NCBI GenBank assembly: GCA_009887095.1
Contig: QXYC01000008.1
Location: 1 to 64,000, forward strand
Reading direction: 5' to 3'
Source: Candidatus Poseidoniales archaeon
GTDB taxonomy: Archaea > Thermoplasmatota > Poseidoniia > Poseidoniales > Poseidoniaceae
Length of the DNA stretch: 64,000 bases
The position numbers and the translations under genes were made by a program. Of this stretch, positions 46,706 through 61,173 are shown in pieces (the stretch's first letter is position 1; every line of letters starts with the position of its first letter). The notes under the pieces are model-generated. The model had not been told where the DNA came from. It did no database searches and saw only the letters and a program-made list of their open reading frames with translations.

Positions 46706-47161
46706 TCACAGAATGTTGAGGCTTCGAGCTGCCAAGTTTGCTACAACCAATACACCGAGGATCATGCCGGTGACACGAAGCGCAGTGTGATGACTTGTTG
46801 CAGTGTGTGATTCCCGAAGGAGTGCGTATCCAATTAGACCCATTCCCACAGTTTGAAGGATGACGCCAATGGATGAAACGACCCTGTTAAGATCCGTGTA
46901 GCCGTCCACATCTTTGAGGTATTGACTCAATTCATCGAGCCCAGCATCAGCGTCTGGTTCGTCAGGAGGGCCCCACATCGTCACAACTTGAACAAACAAC
47001 GTTGCAGCAATAATGAGGATGATTCCAATCATGAGCCAACGCTCAAAGGAATAGGCTAACTTGGTCTTGTCGAACCCTTTGGCTGGCTGGTAAGGAGACA
47101 CCGGAGCGGGTTGAGGTTGGGCGGATGGAGCAGGGGGCTGAGGCAATCCTTGCATGGCCAT
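46706..47161 (-). CDS. Small membrane protein at the end of the archaellum operon
   Basis: 151 residues. A Pro/Gln/Ala-rich N-terminal cytoplasmic stretch (PQPPAPSAQPQPAPVSP) is followed by three helices (MIGIILIIAATLFVQVV, IGVILQTVGMGLIGYAL, GMILGVLVVANLAARS). It starts 40 bases after arlJ on the same strand, so it is probably the last gene of the archaellum operon. I do not recognise it as a known Arl protein; it could be an accessory factor or unrelated. Confidence 0.65.
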   Translation of the reverse strand: MAMQGLPQPPAPSAQPQPAPVSPYQPAKGFDKTKLAYSFERWLMIGIILIIAATLFVQVVTMWGPPDEPDADAGLDELSQYLKDVDGYTDLNRVVSSIGVILQTVGMGLIGYALLRESHTATSHHTALRVTGMILGVLVVANLAARSLNIL

Positions 47162-47201: not shown

Positions 47202-49004
47202 TCAGACACCGAAGATTCCCGAGGCGCTCTCGAGGACAACCGAGGTGAGGAAGGAGGTGATTCCTGCAACCCACAGCAATTGAATGGCCTGACCAAGAGC
47301 AGTGGTCCTTCCGCCACCTCGCAGGCGGTTTGAAATCATGGAAACCGCTGCTACTTGGAAGAGGATGAGAATTGAAACGATGATTTTGAACATCCGTATG
47401 TTCTCGCCAACAGCCGAAGCATCTTCCATCACAGGGAGTGCCAGATCAGAACCAAACCGTGAGAGAGCGGACACATCGGTTTCAACGAATCCTTCAGCGA
47501 CACCTGCAATCGAGTCACCAAGTTTCAAGACAATTGCAATTGTTACGTTGAGGCTTGTTACGGTTGCAATGAGCAAACCAAGTGCCACGCCCCGCATTGT
47601 GTTTGCAGAGAGCGCACGACGTCGTCGCAGGGACAGGAGATTTCCAACTGAACGGGATACCATCTCTGCAGTTGCCGCCGGCTGACCAGACGATTGAGAC
47701 CCTTCGATGTAGATACGGGTGTATCTTGAGATGACTGCGGAATTGGTATCTGCTGTGAAATAATCCCAGGCCCGGTCTGAATCGATGCGCGTGGACAAGC
47801 GCTTTTCCAACCGGTCAATGGAGTTGTCAAGCACACCGAAGTCAATGCCTCGAAGGGCCTTGATGGTCGCTGAAGGCTCGGCAGACCGTGCTTGAGCGGT
47901 TCCACCCAAAGCTCGGATGAAATCAGGATATGTTTCATCGCGACGAAGAACTTGTCCTTCTTCACGCCCAACCATGAAGGCTGGAATCAGCATAGGAGAG
48001 AGTGGAGCAACAACCAGCAACAGGCCATAGCGATCCCACTGAGCACTCACTTCTTGCCATGATGCCAAGATGACAATGACGGTGATTGCAAAAAGAATCG
48101 TTGTGATGAGGCTGGCGCCAACCAACGCTCGAAGGAAGTTGACCCGAAACGGCGTATCCATTTCATCACGGGCGAAAGTAGGATCTTCAGGAATGGTTGA
48201 ATTAAACGCCATCACGCCCCCGATTTGAACGATTGTGAACAACAAACCTGCAAGGAGAAGGAAGCGCAAGCGGCTTGCGATTTCGATTGGTGCATCCGTA
48301 GGTGAACCCGTTTCGAACAGCACAAGATGGATGCCAGCAATCACCAAACCAAACAAACCCGCAGAAACCAGCGAGACATAGATTTCCTTCATCGTGTCAA
48401 CGGACTCCAGACGTGTGTCGTACAGAGTGGTGTATTGCTCTGCAATTGTCTCTTGTTCAGAGCGCATGAACTCATCGATTGGCTGACCTGCTTCGATGGA
48501 AAACGCCATTCGGTCGAGGAAATCAGCCCACAGTGGACTTGGACTTTGTTGGGCTACAATTCGTGAAGCTTCAGGTAGCGAAGTGTGCCATTTATCGACA
48601 AGAGTTTCAATCCGTTGAACCTCTGTTGCCAGTTCACCATAGTCCCGCATCTGCTTGAGAATGTCGAAGATGGATTGCGCACCGACTTCACCAAGCGAAA
48701 GAATACCCATTCGAGTGATGAACATGTGCATTTCTTTTTCGATGAGTGTTGCAGATCGTTGGACATCGAGAATAGGAAACACAATCGCTGCCCCACCGGA
48801 TAGGAGGGGAAGGAGTGTCAGTAAGAAAACCCCAGAAATGCCGGAAAACAATGCCCCATCTGCCAATCCACCTGTGACAATGATGATGAGAATCGCCATG
48901 AAGAAACCAGCAGCAGCCGCTCCACCGACAAACAATGCGAGGAAACGCAGCACCGGCATTTCAAGCCGCCGCAAAGCGATTTGCCACATCGACATTCGCT
49001 GCAT
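47202..49004 (-). CDS. arlJ: Archaellum assembly membrane platform protein ArlJ (FlaJ)
   Basis: 600 residues. Two GspF/TadC-like modules are visible, each with a cytoplasmic helical domain (FDILKQMRDYGELATEVQR; IDRLEKRLSTRIDS) and membrane helices around them. The N-terminal helices (FLALFVGGAAAAGFFMAIL) and repeated membrane pairs are typical of ArlJ. It is the membrane platform on which ArlI turns and pushes out archaellins. It lies 10 bases after arlI. Confidence 0.92.
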   Translation of the reverse strand: MQRMSMWQIALRRLEMPVLRFLALFVGGAAAAGFFMAILIIIVTGGLADGALFSGISGVFLLTLLPLLSGGAAIVFPILDVQRSATLIEKEMHMFITRMGILSLGEVGAQSIFDILKQMRDYGELATEVQRIETLVDKWHTSLPEASRIVAQQSPSPLWADFLDRMAFSIEAGQPIDEFMRSEQETIAEQYTTLYDTRLESVDTMKEIYVSLVSAGLFGLVIAGIHLVLFETGSPTDAPIEIASRLRFLLLAGLLFTIVQIGGVMAFNSTIPEDPTFARDEMDTPFRVNFLRALVGASLITTILFAITVIVILASWQEVSAQWDRYGLLLVVAPLSPMLIPAFMVGREEGQVLRRDETYPDFIRALGGTAQARSAEPSATIKALRGIDFGVLDNSIDRLEKRLSTRIDSDRAWDYFTADTNSAVISRYTRIYIEGSQSSGQPAATAEMVSRSVGNLLSLRRRRALSANTMRGVALGLLIATVTSLNVTIAIVLKLGDSIAGVAEGFVETDVSALSRFGSDLALPVMEDASAVGENIRMFKIIVSILILFQVAAVSMISNRLRGGGRTTALGQAIQLLWVAGITSFLTSVVLESASGIFGV

Positions 49005-49014
49005 ACATCATCCC

Positions 49015-50730
49015 TCAATCGTGGTTAATACCCTTCCATGAATCGATGGCACGGTCAAAATGGTCCCAGCCGCTGTTGTAGTAAATCCCCAACAGATCGA
49101 ACACATCGTCGTAGTGCGTCAAGTCACGATCGACCATCTTCTGGAGCGCAGCGGCTCGCTTGAGCATCTCATCGTAAATGTCACGCTTGTTTGCAAAACC
49201 AGCCATTGCAGCAATTTTATTCTCAAGCAAATGGCTTTGGAACATACCACGGAAGTAATGCTTGTCCTTGACTGGGTCCCATTCGAACATACCACGAGTG
49301 AGAACACCATCGCTGTGCTTGTTGTATCCAATGACTTCGTCAATTCCTGTGACACGTCGGGCGATACCGCCACCGGGCGCTTCCACCACTTCCTGGAAAA
49401 TCGCAAAGTTGAGGTTGTCAAAGAAACGAATCGGGACATTGATTGGGTCACCCGTGAATCGTTGAATCATTTTGACAATGGACGATGCGTGGAAGGTTGC
49501 AATAACTGGGTGACCTGTCTGCATTGCTTGGAAAGCAGTCGCACCCTCAACACCACGAATTTCACCGATGATGATGTAACGCGGACGGCTACGAAGCGCT
49601 GCTTTGAGCAAATCGAACATCTCGACACGAGATTCTTCATTCTTTGATGAACGGGTCACAAGACGTTGCCAAATCTTGTGACGAACCTTCACTTCAGGGG
49701 TGTCTTCCGCTGAGTAAATCTTGACATTGTGATCAATGAAGGGAAGAATTGCGTTGAGCGTCGTGGTCTTACCTGAAGCAGTTTCTCCAGACACAAGAAC
49801 AGACATGCCGTATTCTAAGCAAATCCAAATGTATGCAGCCACTTGTGACGAAATGGTACCCCAAGCAATGAGTTGAGTGATAGAAATTGTTTCTTCAGCG
49901 AACTTACGAATCGTGAAAGATGGACCGAGCATCGAAACGTCGTCCGAGAAAATGATGTTGATACGAGAACCATCAAGGAGTGCACCGTCGATGATCGGTT
50001 TGTTATCCGAAACCGGCCTTCCAATACGTTCGGACATAGCACGGAGGAACCGCGAAAGCATCTCTCGTTCACGGAATCGTATGTTCGAGGTGACCATTCC
50101 AAACACCTTGTGATCCATGTGGACGTGCTTGAGACCAATCGAGTGAATATCTTCCAGCATCTCGTCAGAGAGAAGCGGTTCGAGTGGACCATTGCGAATC
50201 AAATCACGAATCACAATGTATTCGAGGCGAGTGCGTTGCTCTTGATTAACGACAATTCGTTTGTCATCCATCCCAAGCATTTCCCAAAGTCGTCCTTGTC
50301 GCCTTGGGCTCAAACCGAGTTCGGTATCCAAAACCGTGTACCGTTCAACCATTTGGCGAAGGATGTTCTCGAATTCATTATCAGTTGTGAATGAAGGAGC
50401 AGTCGGTGCTTCTTGGAGAAGGGTTTCAGTGAGTTCACGTCGGATGTTTTCTTCTTCTTCAGTGAGTTGTGGTTCGAGTCCAAACCACAGCACTTGGCCA
50501 CCGCCTTCTTCGTCAGCAGGGGGCTCGTAAATGTGGACAAAAATTGGCTCTTTGGCCAAATAAATGAGATTGAGTGGGCGTTCTTTCTTGGCATCACGGT
50601 CGAGTTCACCGTAGTAGATCGGCCTTGTACCGTACCGTGCTTCGAAGTCACGCACCCAATCTGCTACGTGAGCGTGGGCTGCCATGACGCCGTTGAGGTC
50701 GCCTTTTGCAAATCGAGGTTCGTCGGCCAT
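49015..50730 (-). CDS. arlI: Archaellum motor ATPase ArlI (FlaI)
   Basis: 571 residues, secretion-type ATPase. Walker A is VSGETASGKTTTL (near 312-324), Walker B region RPRYIIIGEIRG and the His box QTGHPVIATFHA. The N-terminal domain with the LEPLLSDEMLEDIHSIG pattern fits the PilT/VirB11 superfamily, and the arl neighbours make ArlI the specific assignment. ArlI both assembles and rotates the filament. It starts 12 bases after arlH. Confidence 0.95.
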   Translation of the reverse strand: MADEPRFAKGDLNGVMAAHAHVADWVRDFEARYGTRPIYYGELDRDAKKERPLNLIYLAKEPIFVHIYEPPADEEGGGQVLWFGLEPQLTEEEENIRRELTETLLQEAPTAPSFTTDNEFENILRQMVERYTVLDTELGLSPRRQGRLWEMLGMDDKRIVVNQEQRTRLEYIVIRDLIRNGPLEPLLSDEMLEDIHSIGLKHVHMDHKVFGMVTSNIRFREREMLSRFLRAMSERIGRPVSDNKPIIDGALLDGSRINIIFSDDVSMLGPSFTIRKFAEETISITQLIAWGTISSQVAAYIWICLEYGMSVLVSGETASGKTTTLNAILPFIDHNVKIYSAEDTPEVKVRHKIWQRLVTRSSKNEESRVEMFDLLKAALRSRPRYIIIGEIRGVEGATAFQAMQTGHPVIATFHASSIVKMIQRFTGDPINVPIRFFDNLNFAIFQEVVEAPGGGIARRVTGIDEVIGYNKHSDGVLTRGMFEWDPVKDKHYFRGMFQSHLLENKIAAMAGFANKRDIYDEMLKRAAALQKMVDRDLTHYDDVFDLLGIYYNSGWDHFDRAIDSWKGINHD

Positions 50731-50742
50731 TCAGATTCCTCC

Positions 50743-51471
50743 TCAGCTCACCGCGGTGATGTCGACAATGAAGCCCATGCTTGGTTCAACACGCCATCCA
50801 ATGGAAGTCTGTGTTGGACCTGCAGCCCTCAAAAATCGAGTGACGACAATGTTTCTTTTGATTTCACCACCAATCATGGTGGTTTGTAGGTCGAGAACAA
50901 CTTCAGCGGATGCCCGCATGTTGTGCATCAGTTTGTGATCCATTTCTTCGGGGTCCACACAAAGCATGAGTGAGCGGCCATCAGCACAGATTCGACGAAG
51001 CCTCTGCATCATCGAAAATCGCTCCGTTTCATCCAATGAATCTGGCATCAACGAACTTGCGGCGTCGATAATGACAACATCTGCTAAAGCGATGGCATCG
51101 GATTCAAGCAATTCTTCCAAGCCCACATTGGGGAGCGCTTCAGCGATTGTTCCAAAACGAGAGAACACCATGAGTTGCCCTTCACGGATGGCATCGGTGA
51201 TGCCATACCCAATGGACTCCATTTGTTCAATCCATCCTCGTGTGGTGAGTTCCGTGGTGATCACAAGCACTTTCACGCCATTTTCGACCATTCCGTACGC
51301 AAGGCGCTGAGAGATCAGTGATTTTCCACCACCGACTGCACCCTGCAACACATATAGGGAACGATTTGGCATGCGCAATCCCATCGAGTCGGCCAGCGAA
51401 TCAGTTTCTAAATCATAAGGAAAACCATCTTCCATTGGCTTGTGTGCTTTCAAAAATGGATCGTCTGTCAT
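50743..51471 (-). CDS. arlH: Archaellum regulator ArlH (FlaH)
   Basis: 242 residues, RecA/KaiC-like. Walker A is GAVGGGKS (44-51) and Walker B is DVVIIDAASS (131-140). The conserved TTELTTRGWIEQM helix is also visible. ArlH binds ATP without turnover and forms a ring with ArlI and the Arl C/D/E cytosolic ring. Its start overlaps the arlG stop by four bases. Confidence 0.93.
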   Translation of the reverse strand: MTDDPFLKAHKPMEDGFPYDLETDSLADSMGLRMPNRSLYVLQGAVGGGKSLISQRLAYGMVENGVKVLVITTELTTRGWIEQMESIGYGITDAIREGQLMVFSRFGTIAEALPNVGLEELLESDAIALADVVIIDAASSLMPDSLDETERFSMMQRLRRICADGRSLMLCVDPEEMDHKLMHNMRASAEVVLDLQTTMIGGEIKRNIVVTRFLRAAGPTQTSIGWRVEPSMGFIVDITAVS

Positions 51472-51965
51472 GAGAGCCTCACCTCGGTGTTGAGCGATGC
51501 GCTTGCGGAAAGTCCGCCAATTGTTTCAGATGTTGCCACCGCATACAAGGCAACATCGTCCCCTTCTGCATAACCGGATACACCCGTGTATTGCAACTCA
51601 ATTTCCAAGAGGACATTTGAGTTCCATTCTGTGGCAGTTCCAACAAAAGAGACTGATATTGCGGTCGGAGAACGACCATCAACAAACACGCTCAGTTGAT
51701 TTTCATCCATAGGGTGTTGACCCGTGTTCAATGCATAGAAGGTAATCGTTTCAGTGGAGGTCGAATTATCAAAATCAACCATCATCGGATCTCCAGCAAA
51801 CTCAATGCTCAGTTCCGAAGAAAGTTGAGCACCACGCTGTTGAACTTGTGCGACCTTCGCCGTATTTGTCCATTCTGTGATCAATAAAGCGCTCACAGCG
51901 CTTGAAATCAACAACCCCGTGATGAGCATGATGAATGTTGAAGCTCCACCGTCTGCCATGTTCAA
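51468..51965 (-). CDS. arlG: Archaellum stator-type protein ArlG (FlaG)
   Basis: 165 residues. A single N-terminal membrane helix (FIMLITGLLISSAVSALLI) is followed by a beta-sandwich domain with the NTGQHPMDENQLSVFVDG pattern shared by ArlF and ArlG. ArlG filaments tipped by ArlF are thought to anchor the motor in the pseudoperiplasm. It starts three bases after arlF and overlaps arlH by four bases. Position and fold together give the call. Confidence 0.85.
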   Translation of the reverse strand: MNMADGGASTFIMLITGLLISSAVSALLITEWTNTAKVAQVQQRGAQLSSELSIEFAGDPMMVDFDNSTSTETITFYALNTGQHPMDENQLSVFVDGRSPTAISVSFVGTATEWNSNVLLEIELQYTGVSGYAEGDDVALYAVATSETIGGLSASASLNTEVRLS

Positions 51966-51968
51966 ACC

Positions 51969-52664
51969 TCAGATTGCTTCTGCAGCAACAAACCCTGCAG
52001 AGGTGGTTACGAATCGTGAGGTGAGCGTTGGCGGAGAAGGGAGGATTAGATCCACCGTTTCTCCAACATACCAATTCTCTGATGCAAAATCAGGAGTTGC
52101 TTGGTTTTGGGCCCAACCTTGGAGGTGGATGGTGCTGAACTGTGTGGGGGAATCCCCATCAAAGAACATCCAAACATTCTCCGTTTTGAGTGTCATGTCG
52201 CCTGTATTTGTGAGGTTCGCGTAAAAGATATCACCGGACGTAAAGGTGAACGTTGGCGTAGGTGTCAGCGTGCCCTGACCACTTACCGTGATGCTTGTTG
52301 GGGGGGTTGTGTACGAACCGTGGCTGGTGATCACCACAGAATTTACATCGATTTCCCCAGAAGTCACAGTAAAGGTAGCGGCAAAGCCACCCAAACCAGC
52401 GCCGCCATTTGCGACAAGTGTTCCATTTACGACACCAGAACCGGAACCGGTCCCAGTCACCGCAACGGTAAGAATCGCTCCTTCGACAAGGGAAGCATCG
52501 TCAATGACAAACCTCGGCACGGGATCGGCTGCTGCATCAAGAACCTCCATTGAGGTCTCCATTTGATACGACATTGTTTGAACGGCCATGGAAAACACAA
52601 CCAACAATGAGACCCCAATAATGAGGCCACCGATTCCAACCGAGCCTGCCATATCAGGCTTCAC
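51969..52664 (-). CDS. arlF: Archaellum stator protein ArlF (FlaF) with inserted domain
   Basis: 231 residues, against ~140-165 usual for the family. An N-terminal helix (VGIGGLIIGVSLLVVFSMAVQ) leads to the typical C-terminal half (YANLTNTGDMTLKTENVWMFFDG). Between them, residues ~56-142, sits an extra Gly/Thr-rich beta module (TGTGSGSGVVNGTLVANGG, SYTTPPTSITVSGQG) like repeats found in phage tail and adhesin proteins. In Sulfolobus ArlF binds the S-layer. The start at 52664 overlaps the upstream gene by 11 bases; Met5 (52652) would avoid overlap. Confidence 0.8.
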   Translation of the reverse strand: MKPDMAGSVGIGGLIIGVSLLVVFSMAVQTMSYQMETSMEVLDAAADPVPRFVIDDASLVEGAILTVAVTGTGSGSGVVNGTLVANGGAGLGGFAATFTVTSGEIDVNSVVITSHGSYTTPPTSITVSGQGTLTPTPTFTFTSGDIFYANLTNTGDMTLKTENVWMFFDGDSPTQFSTIHLQGWAQNQATPDFASENWYVGETVDLILPSPPTLTSRFVTTSAGFVAAEAI

Positions 52665-53490
52665 CTCGGAGGGATCTCACACTTCGCCATGAACTGACAA
52701 GGGATGAGAACGTAAGCAATTCTTTGTGCGGCAAATGATCGTCAAGCGCAGCCTCGGATTCCCCGGGCTCTGCGAGTTGAACAATTGCCATGACGGATCG
52801 TCCTTCTTCGTCGCTCAGCATACCGGAGGCCATGGCCTTCTGGGTAAAGCTGACCGCTGCCATGCCCGACATGTGGTCGAGCAAGAGTGCGGAGACGGTT
52901 GGTGCACCAACGCTGTTTGCGTCAGCTGTCGCACCACGGGACGGAGCATGCAAGAATGGATTTGCTGCGAGGGCTTGAGCCTCGTAGAGTTCCACCAATG
53001 GTGCTTCGTCCACTTCTTTGAGACGATTGTTTCCGGTGACGGGAATGACTTCACCGCTTGCAGTGACGATTGTATCGCCACTGAGCGCTGCTTCATCCAT
53101 GTCAACTTCGTCAGGAGAGCCCTCTTCAGCAGGGGCTTGGGGGGTCTCTTCGAGACGAACTTCAACCATGCGAAGCACATCCTCGACCATGTCGAGGCGG
53201 CTGCTGATCAAACGTTCGAGTCCGGACGTGTCAACGGTCGTGTTCACCGGTGCGGCAGGTGCTGGAGCGAGGCTAGCCGCCACGCTCGGCACACTGCCGA
53301 TGCTGTTGAGTCGTGCCTTTGTAGGACCGGGGGAGATGGTCCACGCATCTTCTTCACCGAGTTCGCCTTCCTCTGGGAGAGGGACTTGCTCAATGGCGAT
53401 GTTCGCCATGATCTTGAGACGATCTTCGGTTAATGCTGCGTCTTCATCTCGGTCCTTGTTTGCACTGCCACCAAATGGCCAGGCCATCAT
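52654..53490 (-). CDS. ArlCDE-like archaellum cytosolic ring protein
   Basis: 278 residues, no signal peptide or membrane helix. A low-complexity acidic N-terminal half holds a short coiled coil (LERLISSRLDMVEDVLRMVEVRL). The C-terminal ~90 residues (SALLLDHMSGMAAVSFTQKA, GMLSDEEGRSVMAIVQLA) vaguely follow the FlaD/E pattern. Position between archaellins and arlF is exactly where arlC/D/E genes sit in euryarchaea. The call is based mostly on position; sequence support is weak. A strong GGAGG precedes the two Met codons at the start. Confidence 0.55.
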   Translation of the reverse strand: MMAWPFGGSANKDRDEDAALTEDRLKIMANIAIEQVPLPEEGELGEEDAWTISPGPTKARLNSIGSVPSVAASLAPAPAAPVNTTVDTSGLERLISSRLDMVEDVLRMVEVRLEETPQAPAEEGSPDEVDMDEAALSGDTIVTASGEVIPVTGNNRLKEVDEAPLVELYEAQALAANPFLHAPSRGATADANSVGAPTVSALLLDHMSGMAAVSFTQKAMASGMLSDEEGRSVMAIVQLAEPGESEAALDDHLPHKELLTFSSLVSSWRSVRSLRGEA

Positions 53491-53539: not shown

Positions 53540-54100
53540 TCAAACGACCTTTGACCCAGTAGCGGTATCTTGGACTGAGAGGGTTTCGAAGGTTGTACCT
53601 CCGGACCCGACGTGGATGTACATTTGTACACTTGCGCCAGTTCCAACAGTTCCAGCTTCACAGTCGCTACCACCGGCACTGCCAGCGATGAGCATTGTGT
53701 AACCGGTTGCAGGGGACATTTCCACAGCGTTTCCACCAGTGCCGTCCATGAGGACAGTGTTTCCAACGTTTCCTTCAACGACTGCTGCGCCGCCGCACAT
53801 CAACTGGTAGCTGATGCTTGCGACTGGAGCAGGTTCGCTGCCAGGAGCGAGGCGAACGAACAACTTGTATCCGTTTGCGTCAACGTAAGCGGAGTTGATC
53901 ATGACCTTTCCTGCCATGTTGTCTGCTGTGTCGTCACCTGTTTGCTGAGCGTTTTGTTGCAATGCTTCAGCAGTTTGGATGATCACGGCTGCTGCGACTG
54001 CTGCAACGAGGATCAAGGCAATGAAGACAATCATTGCACCAATACCAATTGCTGCAACCTTGTCGTCTTGGAGTTCAGTTGTGTGAGTGTTCGACTTCAT
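53540..54100 (-). CDS. arlB: Archaellin, second copy
   Basis: 186 residues from ATG 54100; the longer frame upstream lies inside the first archaellin and is not used. The class III signal peptide is short and acidic/basic (MKSNTHTTELQDDKVAA), followed by the archaellin core IGIGAMIVFIALILVAAVAA. The conserved IIQTAEALQQNAQQTG segment follows. After cleavage by ArlK the protein polymerises into the filament. Its ATG overlaps the stop of the first archaellin (ATGA). Confidence 0.93.
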   Translation of the reverse strand: MKSNTHTTELQDDKVAAIGIGAMIVFIALILVAAVAAAVIIQTAEALQQNAQQTGDDTADNMAGKVMINSAYVDANGYKLFVRLAPGSEPAPVASISYQLMCGGAAVVEGNVGNTVLMDGTGGNAVEMSPATGYTMLIAGSAGGSDCEAGTVGTGASVQMYIHVGSGGTTFETLSVQDTATGSKVV

Positions 54101-54648
54101 ACAACCACCAATCCTCGGTCGACGCTTCCGCCGTAGCTCAACAGTTCGTAGGTGAATCCACCAGAACCGGATTGAATCATGAATTCGTGAGCAGCGTTCA
54201 CTGCAGGAGGGCATTCGGTAGCGCCTGCAAGAGCGAGCGTGATGCTGTAGGTCGCCCCTGTTTCGAGGGTCGCTGATGCACCGGCTTGTCCGACTTCGCT
54301 TGCGCCAGTGAAGTCGCCTTCACTGCCTTGAGCGCCACAGACAATTGCCCACATGACATCGCCAGCCTGAATTTCATCAGAACCTGGAGCAAGCTCGAAG
54401 GTCACCAAGATGGATGTTGCTGGATCAGTTGCACCAGTCGTAATCACGCTCTTGATGAAGATCTTCGAAGCCAACAAATCTGTTGTCTCTTCGCCGGTCG
54501 TCTGTGCGTTTTGTTGCAATTGCTCTGCAGTCTGAATAATGACTGCTGCTGCAACCGCCGCAACAAGAATCAGAGCAATGAACACAATCATTGCACCAAT
54601 ACCAATTGCAGCGATGTTATCGCTGTTTTCGTTCGTATTTTCTTTCAT
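54097..54648 (-). CDS. arlB: Archaellin, first copy
   Basis: 183 residues. It has the same N-terminal core as the second copy (AAIGIGAMIVFIALILVAAV and IIQTAEQLQQNAQTTG), while the outer domain is unrelated at sequence level beyond a shared beta-rich style. GGTGA six bases before the ATG is a good ribosome site. The 56-base gap upstream, after the coiled-coil gene, is AT-rich and may hold an internal promoter for high archaellin expression. Confidence 0.93.
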   Translation of the reverse strand: MKENTNENSDNIAAIGIGAMIVFIALILVAAVAAAVIIQTAEQLQQNAQTTGEETTDLLASKIFIKSVITTGATDPATSILVTFELAPGSDEIQAGDVMWAIVCGAQGSEGDFTGASEVGQAGASATLETGATYSITLALAGATECPPAVNAAHEFMIQSGSGGFTYELLSYGGSVDRGLVVV

Positions 54649-54704: not shown

Positions 54705-55772
54705 TCAGGCGTTGCCTCCTGAACCAATGTTGATGCGCAACGGCATGCGAATAAGAGCGACTTCATCTGGTGCCAGTCGGTTGATGAATGGCACTGAATC
54801 GGTGGTGAAGCCCGGAGGGATCCACGGCGAGAGAACGATGTCTTGCAACGGCTCCATTGAGCGGTTTTGGGCGCGAATGGTGGCGGTAATGTCGCCAGTA
54901 CGCATTTCATAGGAGGTGGCGACCGCTAATTTACGGGACAATGGGATTTCATCCGCTCCGTAACGGCGGTTGGCCTTCACTTCGAATCGGAGCGGGAGGT
55001 TCCCTCCGGGTGCGATGATTGGAAGATCGACTGAGGAGGGAACACATGTCCATCCATCTGGTACTGGTGGTGCAAGTCGCATGCCGGGCATGGCGACAGG
55101 ACCATCGTTGATGATTCGGACGATGAGGACGCCTTCATCGCCACCAGCAGGCCATCGCGTGTCAAGACCGAGCCAAAAGTGGCGGAACAAGAACGGGTTG
55201 AGTGTTGCGGTGTTGCCGCCAATGAGGTCGTCGACAAGATGCTCAACTTCACCTGCTGCAACGCCAACGTCACCAATTTCTGCTGCGCCGGTTGCAGAAT
55301 GGAGTCGGAGAAGAATTGTTTCGACTTCCTCCTCATTGATTTTCTTCTCATTAAGGAGCCTGTGGAGCATGGCAATATTTCGTCGGAGATGAAGAACATC
55401 CTCTTCCAACAAAGCGAGGGACTGTTCGGCTTTCTTGACAGATTTACGCGCTGCTTTCAACTTGTGTCGATTGAGGAAGACCTTGGCGTCAGCAATATCG
55501 ACTTCAGTTCCTGCCAGAGAGTTGGATTCATCTTGAACCACACCAAAGACAAGCGATTCGAGTTCCCTCGATGCTGCAATCAAGCGGTCAGCGGAATCTT
55601 TGCTGGCAGCGATAGCCGCACGTGCTTCTTCCACTTCCCCTTCAGACATGTCTGTCGTGATCGTTCGTTCCTCGTTCAATTCAGAGGATTCGAGGTCGAA
55701 CTGGGCGTCAACTTCGTCCAAGAGCATGGTCGGATCATCAATAACATCAACATCGCCCTTAGACATCCTCAT
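54705..55772 (-). CDS. Coiled-coil plus beta-sandwich protein in archaellum operon, unknown
   Basis: 355 residues, no signal peptide or membrane helix, so probably cytoplasmic. Residues ~40-190 are helical with strong heptad character (KAARKSVKKAEQSLALLEED, HLRRNIAMLHRLLNEKK). Residues ~200-350 form two beta-sandwich-like domains (VLIVRIINDGPVAMPGM; IVLSPWIPPGFTTDSVPF) of the Ig type. It overlaps the 1636-aa gene by 14 bases and precedes the archaellins. I do not recognise it among ArlB-ArlK. Likely partner of the cytosolic tail of the 1636-aa protein; this is inference. Confidence 0.75.
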   Translation of the reverse strand: MRMSKGDVDVIDDPTMLLDEVDAQFDLESSELNEERTITTDMSEGEVEEARAAIAASKDSADRLIAASRELESLVFGVVQDESNSLAGTEVDIADAKVFLNRHKLKAARKSVKKAEQSLALLEEDVLHLRRNIAMLHRLLNEKKINEEEVETILLRLHSATGAAEIGDVGVAAGEVEHLVDDLIGGNTATLNPFLFRHFWLGLDTRWPAGGDEGVLIVRIINDGPVAMPGMRLAPPVPDGWTCVPSSVDLPIIAPGGNLPLRFEVKANRRYGADEIPLSRKLAVATSYEMRTGDITATIRAQNRSMEPLQDIVLSPWIPPGFTTDSVPFINRLAPDEVALIRMPLRINIGSGGNA

Positions 55773-58700
55773 TCACCTCCTCTGTAGGAACTTCTGCGTC
55801 GAGAATGGTTCCCACGGTTGCAGTGGTGGAGATATCTCCAAAGATTTCGTCAAGGTTCAATCCGTCGCCTGCTAATTCGTTGAACAAGCGGGCCGGGTCG
55901 CCGAGGTCTCGCTCGATACGAGTGGCTTTGACTTCAACGTCGGTGAGGCGTCCGTACAAGTTGCCGTAAGCACGGTCTGCGCGCTGGATGATAAACCAAA
56001 CACCAAGCATGACAATCGTGATGTATACGACCAAGGAGACCATGTTGTTCTGGTCATTGTAGAGTTGTGGTGGCAATCCAAGAACGACAGCAACGAAACC
56101 GAGAACTGGCACGGCAAGGATGACACTCAGTTGTCGCCGGCTATCTTTGAGAGCGGCAAAGTGATCGGCGTAGAGGGTTGAGACGCCACGGCGAGCACGC
56201 TGGTAATCTTCGTGAATGAGTTTGAATTCCTCTGCGCTCACCCAACTCATACGCCAGATCCACAATGCTGTTGCAACGAGAACACCTAGGCCCCAGAACG
56301 GGACGTCGAGCAGGTGGAAAGAGAAACCGAATCCGAGCACGCCGGCATAGACTGCCATGAGGCGGAACTTCTCGTTTTGGCCTGTAAGCCTCAAGAGAAT
56401 GATGGATGTAATGAGGCAGACCATGAGTGCAACAAAACTTGTTGAAACACCTGGAGAGGTGGATTCAACATTGAGTTCGATGGTACGCACGTCGTTTCCA
56501 ACAACGTTCTTGTCCATGTAGAACGCATCGACTGTTGCCGTACAGTCAGTCATTTCGGACTGCTCCCACCAATCGATGGAGTCAGGTTGGATTCGCCAGT
56601 CAAGAACAACTGAATCACCAGGCCCAAGAATACCAATCATAGGGACAACTTCTGGACCTGAAAGAATCGTTGCGGAAGGGCACACAAGGGCCACGTCCAC
56701 GCCAAGTGCGGTTGCGGTGCCCGCATTGGTCACGGTGAGGAGGAGGTCGAATTCCTCGCCTTCCTCAAGCGTTAGCATTTCAATGGATTCAACCAATGGG
56801 TCAGCGAAGACATCCAATTCGAAATTGAAGGTTTCTTCATCGTACACAGTGTAGGAATTGTTCTCCGTTGGGTGGTAAAGGCGGAACGTCATCTCCCAGC
56901 CATCGCCGGAAAGGATCTTTCCTCGGTCTGGTGCGTTAACGGAGATCCTGAGGGGCGCAGACGTATCCCAAGCATTTCGTGCCGGCAAGCTAATCCTCGA
57001 AAGTTCGCCTTGGGTACCAGAAGCGCAGGAAGCAGAGGAGAGCGGAAGAATCACTTCGGTGTTGTTTGCATCGGGGAGAATGACCTTGAATTCCCATGGA
57101 TATTCTGCTTCATTGAGGTTAAGTGCGGCGAAGTCGAGGATACGGACCGCACTGCACAGTTCGATTTCGTAAGCAGCACTCAATGCTTGACCGTTTGGAA
57201 TGTGAGAGTAAATGATGTCGACATCAATTGGAGCATCCCCCACTTCTGGCCTGAGCACAATATCGCCTGTGCTAAAGAACCTCGACATCTTGAGGTTGGT
57301 TGCGTACGATGCGTTGCCCTGAACCGTTTCATCAACCGGTTCATAATAGATTTTGAAATCTGCTTGAAGCGAAAGGTCGGGCTCGAAATTCAAAGCCTTC
57401 ACGCTGAAAATGTGTGTGATTGGAACACCGACTGGGAGATAGAGCGTTGAAGGAGCACCCGTTTCCATGGCCCAATCGCTCGAGCCGACTTCGAGACCAG
57501 CCCGGTTCACAGAATAGCCGACATTGACTTCGACATCTCGGTTACCGGTGTTGGTGAGTGCAACTTCCCATGTGCGAGTTCCTTGACGGTAGAATTCCAT
57601 CACTGCCGGCCATGCTTCTGCTTCGAGCGCAAAGATTGCTCCGACTCGGAGCTGGATGGTGAAGCTGGTCTTGAAGGCAAACGTCGAAGCATCATAGACA
57701 GAGAGTGTTAGGTTGTGGACTGAACCATCGGCAAGCGACTGTTCTCCACCAAGGCTTGGGACGCTCACTACAATCTGACCCGTGATGGTCTGATTGATCT
57801 GGAGAGTCATACCGATTTCGTTGACATCTGTCGTCCAGTTTCCTTCGACGGCGGGTGTGACGAGGACCGATTCCTCTAAGTTCCCGATGTTCGTTAGGTT
57901 GAACTCGATGTTGGTCATTTGACCCGGCGTTACCCCAATCACAAGTGGAGCATCGATTCGAATATCCGAACTCTTCGTAATGTTTGCAGTAATGGTTGCA
58001 GACATGTTGACTGCGCCCGTTTCGTCTTCGACCCAAATAACGACCTCATACATTTGATCAGCACTTGCAGAGGCTGTTGGAATCACGTTCACCTTGATAA
58101 TTTCCTCATATCCTGGAGCCACAAGCAGCGATGGATTGGAGTCGAGTTCAAAGATGACATCACCGGCAAGACTGTTATCAATCCAAACATTGTAGGTGGT
58201 TGGGGCGTTGCCTGTATTTTTGACCTTGACTGTCTTGAACTCGTCGTAATCCGTTGGGTCAACCGAGATGTGCTGGGTGAGAGGGAACAAAGTGCCGTTT
58301 CTCAGTTCACCAACTCGCACAGGGAGAATGTGCTCGCCAATGGAAGCGCCAGTGTCCCGTTCTTCGATGGTGATGGTCAGTGGAACAATCGAATTCGCTG
58401 GGACGAATGGGTCTGTCTCGATGAGCAGTTCGACGATTGTTTGGTGAGCCGAACCAGATGCAGGGAAATCGGCGACATCCGCTGAGAGGTTGTCCACGAT
58501 ATCCGTGGTTCCGTTAAACTGAACAATCCAGTCGTCTGGGACATCAGAGATTCGGAGGCGGTAGGATGCGAGATCGTTTCCAATGTTGGCGAATGGGAAG
58601 GCAACAGCGGTTTCAACGCCGACTTCCACATCAACGGGACCATCTTCGAGGATTTCCGCTCCGAGGACTGTTGGCACGGTGATGGTGAGGTTTCGTGTGA

Positions 58701-60669
58701 CTGGGTTGGCAGTAACGCCGCTTCCAGCATGCACGCCGCCCAAGGTGGGTGTTACGGTCACGGAGAGCGTCAGGGTCCCAGAGAGCGGATAATCGTCATC
58801 GGGTCCTTGAATGGCTAGAATCGCAGGAGAGGTGTCGCCCGGCTTCAATCCGGTGAGTTGTGGCGGAGAGACCACAGCACTCCAGCGACTGGCTTCAGAA
58901 AAGCCTCCGGTGTTGGCAGCAAGGAAGGACAGCCCGCTGACCTCAATGTCCGCACTCAGCGTTTCATCGATATCAGCAAACAAATTGTGGCGAACTTCGA
59001 CGTTCAGGCCGAGCACATCTTCGAGTCCTTGCCCGTTCCGGGCTGCGACGACCTCTGCTTGAGTCAATTCGAGTTCGAGCGTTGGCAAGCCAGGGTCAAC
59101 AACAATGGTAGGGAGGACTTCGATGCCCGCTGATGCTTGCGTAGGAATTCCGCCGCCTGCAGCACGGGCTTGTAGCCACACTTGCAGGGGCTGGCCTGCA
59201 AGGTTGAATTCACCAGGATCGAGTGGGCTCTTGATTGGAGGCACCTTCACATTGATTGGAATTTGAACCGTTGCTGATCTGTTAATGAACGTGGACCATT
59301 GATCGCATGCTTGACCTTGGATGTCGAGTTCCCAGTTGTTTGCTGAGACGGACAGGCCGCAATCAAAAGCAAATTCAGCGCCGACGTTCCCAGCATTGGT
59401 AACGTTGGCAATAATGGTGCTGCTGTCACCGGGCAACAGTTCGGTGGTGTCAGTTGGCATTTCGATTGATGCGATGTATGATTCACCGGCTTGTACAACT
59501 GCTGTGGTGACAAGTTCGTATCCATCTTGAATCGAAAGGAGTGTGAGCGTGATCGCAGAGGCATTGGAACGGTTTTCCCCGAGTGGCACCGTCACAGGAA
59601 TGCCAATGGAGGTTGTAGCGCCTGGCGAGAGGGCTGCAGTGGAACTACCCACCGCACTGGTGGAAGCCCAGTTTCGGTTTGTAGGATTGGTTGTAATCGA
59701 AGAAATTTGGAAGGAATCTTGGACCCCACCTGTGTTTTTCAAGAGGAAGGTGAGGGTCCCAGTTTGGCCGGGTTCAATGGAGCGGTCGCCGAGTGAGGAA
59801 AGGGATGCTGTGTAATTGGAAAGACGCACGGTGACGCTGGCAATAGTTGGGGCATCGTTCCAAAGAGTCCCGTTGTAGAGGATCTTCGCATCAAGCGTCC
59901 AAAGGCCCGAAAGAGCCGAGGGGTCGTAGGAGAGGGTGAGATCTTCTGGACTGGCCGGAGCGTAAAGCGAACCAGAACGCAGGGTTTGGGTGTTTGAGTA
60001 ATACACAAAGGAGTTCGATGGATTGGATTGCTCGGTCAATGTGACCTCCATCACTGCAGAGATGTTCTTCACACCGTTGTTTCGCACTGAGGCGCTGATG
60101 GTTTGCACTGTTCGTGTCAAGCCAACGCTTGTCTCGCCGGGTGCGAGGGTTGGAACAGTGTCTGAAACTGAGATGCCGCTGTGGTTGTTCTTGACATCGA
60201 AGTCCTTTCGTTGTTCGTTATTGGCTGGATTGCTATCCCCGTTGCCCGAGACGCGAGCAAAGAGCGTTTGGTCATCGCCAGTGGTGGCAGTCCATGGAAT
60301 GATGATTGGGTTTGAAGTTGTCAGGGCAGGGATGGTACCCAACGAAATCGTGGTCACAATGTATTCGCCTGCTGTTGGCGAGCCTTTGTGGACAAGTTGC
60401 AACGATGCCGGGCCACCGACATCACCAGTGTTTCGAACAACAACACGGATGTCATGCTCTGCTGGCTCAACTGTGATGCCATCACCGCGGTCGACTGAAC
60501 CTGCGCCGCTCATGGTCATGACCGTGACGCCAAAGTCAGGAGCTGCTCGACCAGATGTATCGGCACCAGTCGAACCGATGAGGGGCGTAGCGGTTGGAAT
60601 CAAGAACAGAAGAATCAGCGCCATGGCGAGTTTCGTCGAGGCACGTTGTGGATTACGCAGAGGCCCCAC
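55759..60669 (-). CDS. Giant Ig-like multi-membrane protein in archaellum operon
   Basis: 1636 residues. A signal peptide (LAMALILLFLIPTATPLIG) is followed by ~10 Ig-like (CARDB/NEW3-type) domains marked by NTGN-like turns (VRNTGDVG, LKNTGG, VTNAGNVG, VKNTGNAP, LTNIGNLE, LTNTGNRD, VTNAGTA) and few Cys. The C-terminal ~250 residues hold four to five membrane helices (FVALMVCLITSIILLRL; SVILAVPVLGFVAVVLG; VSLVVYITIVMLGVWFI) and a charged cytoplasmic tail of ~80 residues. Overlaps on both sides (17 bases with the upstream gene, 14 with the downstream one) put it firmly in the archaellum operon. Function unknown; a surface scaffold or motor anchor is the favoured idea. Confidence 0.82.
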   Translation of the reverse strand: MGPLRNPQRASTKLAMALILLFLIPTATPLIGSTGADTSGRAAPDFGVTVMTMSGAGSVDRGDGITVEPAEHDIRVVVRNTGDVGGPASLQLVHKGSPTAGEYIVTTISLGTIPALTTSNPIIIPWTATTGDDQTLFARVSGNGDSNPANNEQRKDFDVKNNHSGISVSDTVPTLAPGETSVGLTRTVQTISASVRNNGVKNISAVMEVTLTEQSNPSNSFVYYSNTQTLRSGSLYAPASPEDLTLSYDPSALSGLWTLDAKILYNGTLWNDAPTIASVTVRLSNYTASLSSLGDRSIEPGQTGTLTFLLKNTGGVQDSFQISSITTNPTNRNWASTSAVGSSTAALSPGATTSIGIPVTVPLGENRSNASAITLTLLSIQDGYELVTTAVVQAGESYIASIEMPTDTTELLPGDSSTIIANVTNAGNVGAEFAFDCGLSVSANNWELDIQGQACDQWSTFINRSATVQIPINVKVPPIKSPLDPGEFNLAGQPLQVWLQARAAGGGIPTQASAGIEVLPTIVVDPGLPTLELELTQAEVVAARNGQGLEDVLGLNVEVRHNLFADIDETLSADIEVSGLSFLAANTGGFSEASRWSAVVSPPQLTGLKPGDTSPAILAIQGPDDDYPLSGTLTLSVTVTPTLGGVHAGSGVTANPVTRNLTITVPTVLGAEILEDGPVDVEVGVETAVAFPFANIGNDLASYRLRISDVPDDWIVQFNGTTDIVDNLSADVADFPASGSAHQTIVELLIETDPFVPANSIVPLTITIEERDTGASIGEHILPVRVGELRNGTLFPLTQHISVDPTDYDEFKTVKVKNTGNAPTTYNVWIDNSLAGDVIFELDSNPSLLVAPGYEEIIKVNVIPTASASADQMYEVVIWVEDETGAVNMSATITANITKSSDIRIDAPLVIGVTPGQMTNIEFNLTNIGNLEESVLVTPAVEGNWTTDVNEIGMTLQINQTITGQIVVSVPSLGGEQSLADGSVHNLTLSVYDASTFAFKTSFTIQLRVGAIFALEAEAWPAVMEFYRQGTRTWEVALTNTGNRDVEVNVGYSVNRAGLEVGSSDWAMETGAPSTLYLPVGVPITHIFSVKALNFEPDLSLQADFKIYYEPVDETVQGNASYATNLKMSRFFSTGDIVLRPEVGDAPIDVDIIYSHIPNGQALSAAYEIELCSAVRILDFAALNLNEAEYPWEFKVILPDANNTEVILPLSSASCASGTQGELSRISLPARNAWDTSAPLRISVNAPDRGKILSGDGWEMTFRLYHPTENNSYTVYDEETFNFELDVFADPLVESIEMLTLEEGEEFDLLLTVTNAGTATALGVDVALVCPSATILSGPEVVPMIGILGPGDSVVLDWRIQPDSIDWWEQSEMTDCTATVDAFYMDKNVVGNDVRTIELNVESTSPGVSTSFVALMVCLITSIILLRLTGQNEKFRLMAVYAGVLGFGFSFHLLDVPFWGLGVLVATALWIWRMSWVSAEEFKLIHEDYQRARRGVSTLYADHFAALKDSRRQLSVILAVPVLGFVAVVLGLPPQLYNDQNNMVSLVVYITIVMLGVWFIIQRADRAYGNLYGRLTDVEVKATRIERDLGDPARLFNELAGDGLNLDEIFGDISTTATVGTILDAEVPTEEVNEDV

Positions 60670-61087
60670 CCCCGTCTGGCTTATCGAAACGATCGATGGT
60701 GACTCGCTTGCCTTGAGACTTCCATTGGGCGAGGAGTTGGTGGAGAAGTCGGTCGTGTTCCTGTTCGGAGATACCCAAGCGGCGACGCTCCTCCCAGAGG
60801 AGAAGTTGCTCAGTGCGCGTCAACAGTGCGTCACGAAGGTACAACTCAAGGGTTCGGCGGTATGCGTCCCTGTCCGAGATAGCATAGACGATTGTATCCC
60901 CTGGCAATTGATCCGAGCGATGTTGAATGAGGTTGCCAAGTGTCAATGCTTCATCGTAGGAGACATTGCGCTTGTCGAGGTCGGTTTGGATGGCGCTTGC
61001 GATGGCCTGCAAATCGAACTTGGTCGAGACGCGCTGAATACGCTTGAAGTACCGACGAGAACGTCGAGACATACGCGATGCGACCAT
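60653..61087 (-). CDS. First gene of the archaellum operon, unknown basic protein
   Basis: 144 residues from ATG 61087, or 139 from ATG 61072. It is soluble and Arg-rich at both ends, helical throughout (QAIASAIQTDLDKRNVSYDE; LLTRTEQLLLWEERRRLGIS), with no known motif. The final 17 bases overlap the 1636-aa gene. It may be a regulator or a cytosolic subunit; no DNA-binding motif is obvious. The promoter region with the inverted repeat lies directly upstream. Confidence 0.7.
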   Translation of the reverse strand: MVASRMSRRSRRYFKRIQRVSTKFDLQAIASAIQTDLDKRNVSYDEALTLGNLIQHRSDQLPGDTIVYAISDRDAYRRTLELYLRDALLTRTEQLLLWEERRRLGISEQEHDRLLHQLLAQWKSQGKRVTIDRFDKPDGGGASA

Positions 61088-61135: not shown

Positions 61136-61145
61136 CGATATAAGC
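61136..61145 (-). promoter_or_regulatory. TATA box of the archaellum operon
   Basis: Minus strand CTTATATCGG lies ~50-65 bases before the two candidate ATGs of the first operon gene. It touches the edge of the inverted repeat, so a protein bound there could block or recruit TBP/TFB. Confidence 0.5.
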
Positions 61146-61173
61146 AGTATGAATCGATATTGATTCATACTGC
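61144..61173. promoter_or_regulatory. Inverted repeat, probable operator between divergent promoters
   Basis: Arms GCAGTATGAATC and GATTCATACTGC are perfect 12-base inverted repeats around a 6-base centre (GATATT), 30 bases in all. It sits in the 193-base gap between the archaellum operon and the peroxiredoxin gene. One TATA-like box lies on each side: CTTATATCGG to the left and CATAAAAG to the right. The arrangement fits a dimeric regulator controlling both promoters. Confidence 0.6.

Follow-up and report, generated by a model that had tools for sequence, protein, structure and literature searches.

How the motor of the archaellum is attached to the cell envelope is an unsolved question, above all in archaea without a surface layer (S-layer), and the cytosolic rings of euryarchaeal motors are without a known link to the membrane. 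The archaellum (arl) operon of a Candidatus Poseidoniales archaeon (Marine Group II, MGII), which lies on a 64,000-nucleotide stretch of contig QXYC01000008.1, referred to throughout as the window, raises this question in a concrete form: three genes, here named g1, g2 and g3, stand directly ahead of the archaellins, and we ask what they are doing there. We report that g2 and g3 are very probably dedicated to the archaellum in the lineages that carry them, while g1 is an optional companion, and we put forward, tentatively, a role for the pair in holding the motor.

The locus itself is already known. Tully 2019 (PMC6336850) drew conserved hypothetical proteins in the operon, in a text without domain analysis, relatives beyond MGII or a function, and Rinke 2018 listed the operon (PMC6461757). 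Within the reach of our literature search, which leaves most subscription journals outside it, we found no paper on the domains, non-MGII relatives or function of the pair; its description as a module of the archaellum in several lineages of Thermoplasmatota appears to be new, and the mechanism discussed below is a testable proposal. The pair is kept with the motor in several of these lineages and has the topology that a link between ring and membrane would need. Furthermore, its carriers include archaea that rank among the most abundant in the surface ocean, for which motility and attachment are debated, with relatives apparently from cold seeps, springs and salt lakes, and the two genes represent concrete markers and deletion targets.

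Occurrence of the genes in Poseidoniales

The source genome is a 1.48 Mb Poseidoniales assembly, 68% complete. The three genes are as follows (aa, amino acids; Ig, immunoglobulin).

g1: 60653..61087, minus strand; basic helical protein of 144 aa, ATG start, first gene of the operon
g2: 55759..60669, minus strand; 1636 aa, GTG start; a signal peptide is followed by about 12 Ig-like domains of the NEW3/CARDB type, then by five membrane helices with a conserved loop in the cytosol and by a C-terminal helix, also cytosolic
g3: 54705..55772, minus strand; 355 aa, ATG start, cytosolic; acidic N-terminus, helical hairpins (residues ~44-185), tandem Ig-like domains (~199-347)

The original prediction, made from the DNA alone, had placed three genes of about these sizes (~140, 1636 and 355 aa) ahead of the archaellins, and its geometry is reproduced exactly: g1 and g2 overlap by 17 bases (60653-60669), g2 and g3 by 14 (55759-55772), and a 56-base gap separates g3 from the first archaellin. 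The basic character of g1 amounts to 26 lysines and arginines against 20 acidic residues. Archaellins, the ArlI ATPase, the ArlJ platform protein and ArlH follow in one cluster, by which we recognise an arl operon.

In comparison to the complete MG-II chromosome (G002/L058, CM001443.1), the nonsynonymous divergence (dN) is 0.006 for g1, 0.028 for g2 and 0.021 for g3, with a synonymous divergence (dS) of 0.45-0.66, and the g3 proteins are 96% identical. The three genes are under strong purifying selection and, because dN is far below dS and homologues are widespread in the order, they are real genes. Values for the archaellins in the same comparison were ignored, the copies compared being non-orthologous.

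We searched 146 Poseidoniales genomes for g3, ArlJ, g1 and g2, counting full or partial true ArlJ; weak ArlJ matches (E ~1e-14 to 1e-19) in genera g16 and g21 and in the class sister f3 were taken as other type II/IV platform proteins. Homologues of g3 are present in 87 genomes, of g1 in 87 (weak matches included) and of g2 in 96. Presence of g3 and of ArlJ agrees in all but 11 genomes, 82 having both and 53 neither (82/5/6/53; Fisher p=6e-27, a value that overstates independence because the genomes are related), and the two switch together across whole genera. They share a contig in 55 genomes, always on the same strand (55/55) and 4.9-6.1 kb apart, and in the 27 genomes that have them on separate contigs, the one with g3 stops short of where arlJ would come (G076 being judged from coordinates). 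ArlJ-positive genomes without g3 keep at least part of g2, with the exception of G045; its contig ends inside arlF, and we rejected it as an example of an arl genome without the module.

Five genera (g11, g12, g15, g17 and g19) have no arl genes and none of g1, g2 and g3, and a second full copy of g3 was found in none of the genomes searched. Nothing therefore points to a housekeeping role in Poseidoniales. Homologues mainly away from arl genes, or in non-motile lineages, had been named beforehand as evidence against the prediction; within Poseidoniales the arl-less genera lack all three genes. Those of the 20 mapped loci that are long enough read g1-g2-g3-arlB-CDE-F-G-H-I-J, bar genera g13, g20 and g14. 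Genus g14 (Thalassarchaeaceae) has an extra open reading frame (ORF) of 1061-1082 aa between g1 and g2 (L059:3580-6828, L060:3367-6552), with a hydrophobic N-terminal stretch, a long coiled coil and repeated LLWDN...DL motifs.

Genera g13 and g20, both arl-positive Thalassarchaeaceae, lack g1 at the locus and, by profile search, anywhere in the genome. Outside Poseidoniales g1 was not found at any arl locus, and the genomes of lineages f11, f28 and f26 hold at most weak matches elsewhere to a 45-residue motif of the protein. As g1 is thus missing from some arl operons that carry g2 and g3, it is dispensable, a small optional helper, and the predicted set of three reduces to a constant pair, g2-g3, plus g1. 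The motif in question is helical (residues ~70-120 of g1) and recurs in proteins of 330-390 aa in most genomes; the copy in G002 (L220, G002:C1:1176707-1176853) has zinc-ribbon cysteines.

The pair outside Poseidoniales

A g3 profile search across the phylum revealed the order g2-g3-arlB, as in Poseidoniales, in lineage f11, and an ArlI scan of named genomes was used to find further arl loci. In that scan the f11 loci fall among the CSMAG and Zod_Metabat metagenome assemblies, which we take to represent cold seeps and Zodletone spring. The same order recurs at L146, a locus of lineage f28 on the same contig as G213. A second linked arrangement, with g2-g3 directly after arlJ, is present at L152 (T1Sed10_113R1) and L161 (GSL_GSL3510), both probably from hypersaline sites to judge from the genome names. 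Here g3 ends in a fused DUF835 domain (E 5e-23), which Pfam searches did not detect in the window g3 or the f28 copy and which is absent from the Poseidoniales copies. In lineage f12 a g3-like ORF ends at arlB, and in f26 the pair lies at a contig end while the arl contig breaks on its arlB side, an arrangement compatible with linkage but not proof of it.

The Poseidoniales and other versions share only ~20% pairwise identity. Judged by cross-lineage profile-profile scores (hhalign; 97.0% for g3 and 96.5% for the g2 C-terminus) together with matching architecture and gene order, they are homologous. Short g2-g3 overlaps recur in many lineages (4 bases in f11), which suggests translational coupling. 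A quick ArlI tree puts Poseidoniales and the remaining carriers on one side of a branch (SH-aLRT, an approximate likelihood ratio test, 91) and needs no more than two state changes, which, given the long branches, tentatively fits a single origin with later loss or relocation.

The pair was not found near arl in Archaeoglobi, Thermococci, DHVE2, Methanosarcinales or several other Thermoplasmatota families among the arl loci examined, nor did a profile search with the Poseidoniales alignment find g3 in the class sister f3. The arl loci from outside Thermoplasmatota serve here as the negative control. Ig proteins resembling g3 in f7, f22 and f25 were not counted, as they stand in other contexts without a g2 neighbour. 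Two further observations concern these surroundings. DHVE2 has a very large TPR protein (2151 aa in L155:14472-20927; second locus L199:9940-10803), which lies convergent with the arl operon and adjoins a protein of 482-491 aa. The tandem Ig region at the C-terminus of the TPR protein is similar to g3 (3e-7), and this protein is possibly an analogous ring partner. In f12 (L261:2310-4653) an ORF of 435 aa occupies the ArlF position, with repeated sequence that by eye is PKD-like, and the ArlG-matching ORF is 349 aa long with apparent repeated ArlG-like units, both being unusually large stator candidates.

Overall, g2 and g3 are present with arl, absent without it and linked to it in separate lineages, lineages f8 and f18 excepted. 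The prediction that the genes belong with the archaellum is thereby borne out for the pair, which occupies one of two positions at the locus in Poseidoniales and in three or more further lineages of Thermoplasmatota.

Domain architecture and the adhesin alternative

None of the three proteins matches an NCBIfam or specific Pfam family in searches of the window proteins. The g2 protein matches Ig domains of the NPCBM_assoc/NEW3/CARDB type at 1.7e-6, above the Pfam cut-off, and g3 does so weakly. N-x-G Ig motifs of g2 at residues 78, 195, 310, 423, 693, 816, 925, 1038 and 1313 have a pitch of ~115 aa, implying roughly 12 Ig-like domains. An N-terminal signal peptide precedes this array, and the AlphaFold model places five membrane helices near the C-terminus, with helices extending into the cytosol; the five C-terminal hydrophobic segments are also present in f11, f28, L152, L161, f8 and f18. 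The g3 protein has no membrane helix and is modelled as helical hairpins and tandem Ig-like domains (predicted local distance difference test, pLDDT, 71; predicted template modelling score, pTM, 0.44). The topology foreseen in the original prediction, an ectodomain array, membrane helices and cytosolic helices in g2 with g3 as cytosolic partner, agrees with these findings.

Neither protein matches the NCBIfam models of ArlF or ArlG, and g3 matches neither FlaC_arch nor Arch_fla_DE in Pfam, a separate gene at the ArlCDE position being present in the operons. Foldseek searches gave low TM-scores, which indicate fold class only: the g3 model matched chiefly Ig domains of the ASH/SPD-2, adaptor-appendage and transglutaminase kinds, and the model of the g2 C-terminus (pLDDT 77) matched generic Ig arrays. 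Among PDB sequences, the only matches to g3 and g1 were coiled coils or due to chance. A match of g3 to EzrA (6.8e-4, far under the cut-off) was judged coiled-coil noise.

Within Poseidoniaceae the loop that g2 exposes to the cytosol is its best conserved part, with 51-74% identity in most of the members compared against 32-46% for the ectodomain; we count this in favour of the tether proposed below, although the difference is gone in the between-family comparison. A long, Ig-like ectodomain evolving faster than the membrane part would suit a surface adhesin made alongside an archaellum that is used for attachment, as in the published interpretation of the operon (PMC6461757). Adhesins, however, rarely combine a five-helix anchor, a conserved cytosolic loop and a co-translated cytosolic partner, and Pfam detects no known ligand-binding domain in g2. 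We consider this explanation distinctly unlikely.

A possible tether for the archaellum motor

Euryarchaeal ArlCDE is without a membrane anchor and its ring has not been seen joined to the membrane in cryo-tomograms (PMC8978795), and what holds the stators of archaea that lack an S-layer is still debated as an open point (PMC12448462). The DUF835 domain derives from KaiC and is inactivated (PMC5847659); as ArlH is KaiC-like, the fused domain on g3 of L152 and L161 hints that g3 points to the ArlH and ring side. Because the topology of the pair fits, ArlCDE is unanchored, DUF835 gives this hint and g2 and g3 overlap, we propose that the pair is a tether or stator accessory complex of the archaellum, a reading to which we give somewhat less than even confidence.

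From the observed linkage, co-occurrence and architecture we infer the physical contacts and anchoring function that such a complex would involve. The g2 protein would be exported and held in the membrane by its five helices, with the array of ~12 Ig domains outside, where it may encircle the ArlF/ArlG stator or attach to the surface layer, and with the cytosolic loop and C-terminal helices forming an inner platform. To this platform g3 would bind, its helical hairpins and tandem Ig-like domains gripping the cytosolic ring (ArlC/D/E, ArlH). A ring that has no membrane anchor of its own would so be tethered to membrane and surface, and the rotor would gain something to push against. A more far-reaching version, which we regard as rather unlikely, is a Thermoplasmatota variant of the archaellum with its own envelope-spanning stator frame, in which an outer collar of Ig arrays and an inner g3 ring would link ArlCDE/ArlH through the membrane to ArlF/G and replace the S-layer as the point of torque reaction.

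The main rival to a tether starts from the absence of CheF, which links chemotaxis to ArlCDE. It was found in 0/146 Poseidoniales genomes, with a control search positive in three archaeal genomes, and according to Rinke et al. chemotaxis genes are not identifiable (PMC6461757); for these reasons a sensor or control unit comes foremost among the alternatives. The Ig array of g2 would sense surface contact or a ligand and g3 would relay the signal to ArlCDE/ArlH, replacing the chemotaxis link. DUF835, as carried by g3 of L152 and L161, is otherwise a response-regulator output domain in Methanomicrobia and Thermoplasmata (PMC5847659), but the Poseidoniales copies are without it, Pfam searches of the window and related copies recognised in neither protein a sensory, HAMP, kinase or receiver domain, and the Ig array is far bigger than typical sensor domains. 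Such a role thus seems unlikely to us.

Several points weigh against a tether. In f8 and f18 the 4-19 kb that carry the pair include no arl gene, ArlJ being present elsewhere in these genomes, and the pair may therefore have, or have had, another role. S-layer-less Thermoplasmatales swim with an operon of arlB-arlJ in which no such genes are reported (PMC12448462), so absence of an S-layer cannot alone be the reason for the pair. The original prediction had suggested that the three genes may build a cage or polar anchor across the envelope of an archaeon without a classical S-layer; such a lack is documented for Thermoplasmatales (PMC12448462) and would be conjectural for Poseidoniales. Rinke et al. 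moreover argue that the operon serves adhesion (PMC6461757).

The g3 copies away from arl (f8/f18; L257:8973-10124, L258:4613-5872) carry C-terminal CxxC zinc-binding motifs, unlike arl-linked g3, and one scores weakly as DnaJ_CXXCXGXG (7e-5). These chaperone-like features, and the position of the pair directly before the archaellins, would suit an assembly factor that aids insertion, modification or export of archaellins or ArlF/G and has no place in the finished machine. Against this, other archaella assemble without the pair, no catalytic domain was found in it and the zinc motifs are confined to copies unlinked to arl; we think an assembly role improbable. The unlinked copies also bear on the idea that an unrelated envelope complex was simply caught in the arl operon. 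Tight co-loss with arl in Poseidoniales and linkage held in two arrangements make drift of this kind unlikely, and we give the idea very little credence.

The operon of the window and its surroundings

Downstream of g3 the window reads as follows, all genes being on the minus strand; the last line gives a feature upstream of g1.

Archaellin 1 (arlB): 54097..54648, minus strand; PF01917 2.3e-17
Archaellin 2 (arlB): 53540..54214, minus strand; PF01917 7.4e-17
ArlCDE-position gene, 278 aa: 52654..53490, minus strand; assigned from its place in the operon and from homologues in the order
ArlF-like stator protein, 231 aa: 51969..52664, minus strand; assigned by position, a weak NCBIfam ArlF match (0.06) and homologues in the same place
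ArlG stator protein, 165 aa: 51468..51965, minus strand; NCBIfam ArlG 2.7e-15, under the curated cut-off
ArlH, 242 aa: 50743..51471, minus strand; NCBIfam ArlH 6.2e-52; KaiC-like (PF06745)
ArlI ATPase, 571 aa: 49015..50730, minus strand; PF00437 7.5e-37; Walker A GETASGKTTT
ArlJ platform protein, 600 aa: 47202..49004, minus strand; NCBIfam ArlJ 4.3e-114
30-bp palindrome: 61144..61173, no strand; candidate operator, in the divergent promoter region 5' of g1

The longest ORF of archaellin 2 overlaps archaellin 1, so its true start is probably an internal ATG ~37 codons in. The window gene at the ArlCDE position has no Pfam match, while that of locus L123 matches Arch_fla_DE and FlaC_arch. A 151-aa membrane protein (46706-47161) lies directly 3' of arlJ, and relatives of it stand at this position only in certain Poseidoniaceae loci (of the genera, not the genes, labelled g1 and g2).

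The palindrome, a candidate operator of the archaellum operon on sequence grounds, consists of perfect 12-bp arms, GCAGTATGAATC-N6-GATTCATACTGC, between the operon and a divergent peroxiredoxin-like gene, with 0 such expected by chance. The MG-II chromosome has a degenerate palindrome at the same place, and in several Poseidoniaceae a TTTATGC-like box stands ahead of it.

Comparison with known systems

The hypothetical proteins drawn in the MGII motility operon in Fig. 4 of Tully 2019 (PMC6336850) almost certainly include g1-g3, as unannotated orthologues. With the classical euryarchaeal archaellum (arlB, C/D/E, F, G, H, I, J) the operon shares all core genes, in the standard order downstream of g3; Poseidoniales differ in adding g1-g2-g3 before arlB and in having no CheF. 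Among Ig-repeat membrane proteins of the NEW3/CARDB type, g2 shares the NPCBM_assoc/NEW3-type repeats, but its C-terminal domain of five helices, its helices in the cytosol and its coupling to g3 mark a narrower family, for which we found no Pfam or NCBIfam entry. Proteins with DUF835, the inactivated KaiC domain, have that domain in common with g3 of L152 and L161 and not with the window g3 or the L146 copy. The ArlF/ArlG stator with its S-layer anchor is alike in proposed role, in that the motor would be held against the envelope; the window, however, still has ArlF/G-like genes, and g2 is an additional and far larger Ig-array protein. ArlX of Thermoproteota, a membrane-anchored element that would tether a cytosolic ring, offers a comparison of working principle only, being described as a predicted single-helix membrane protein (PMC8978795), whereas g2 has five helices and ~12 ectodomains.

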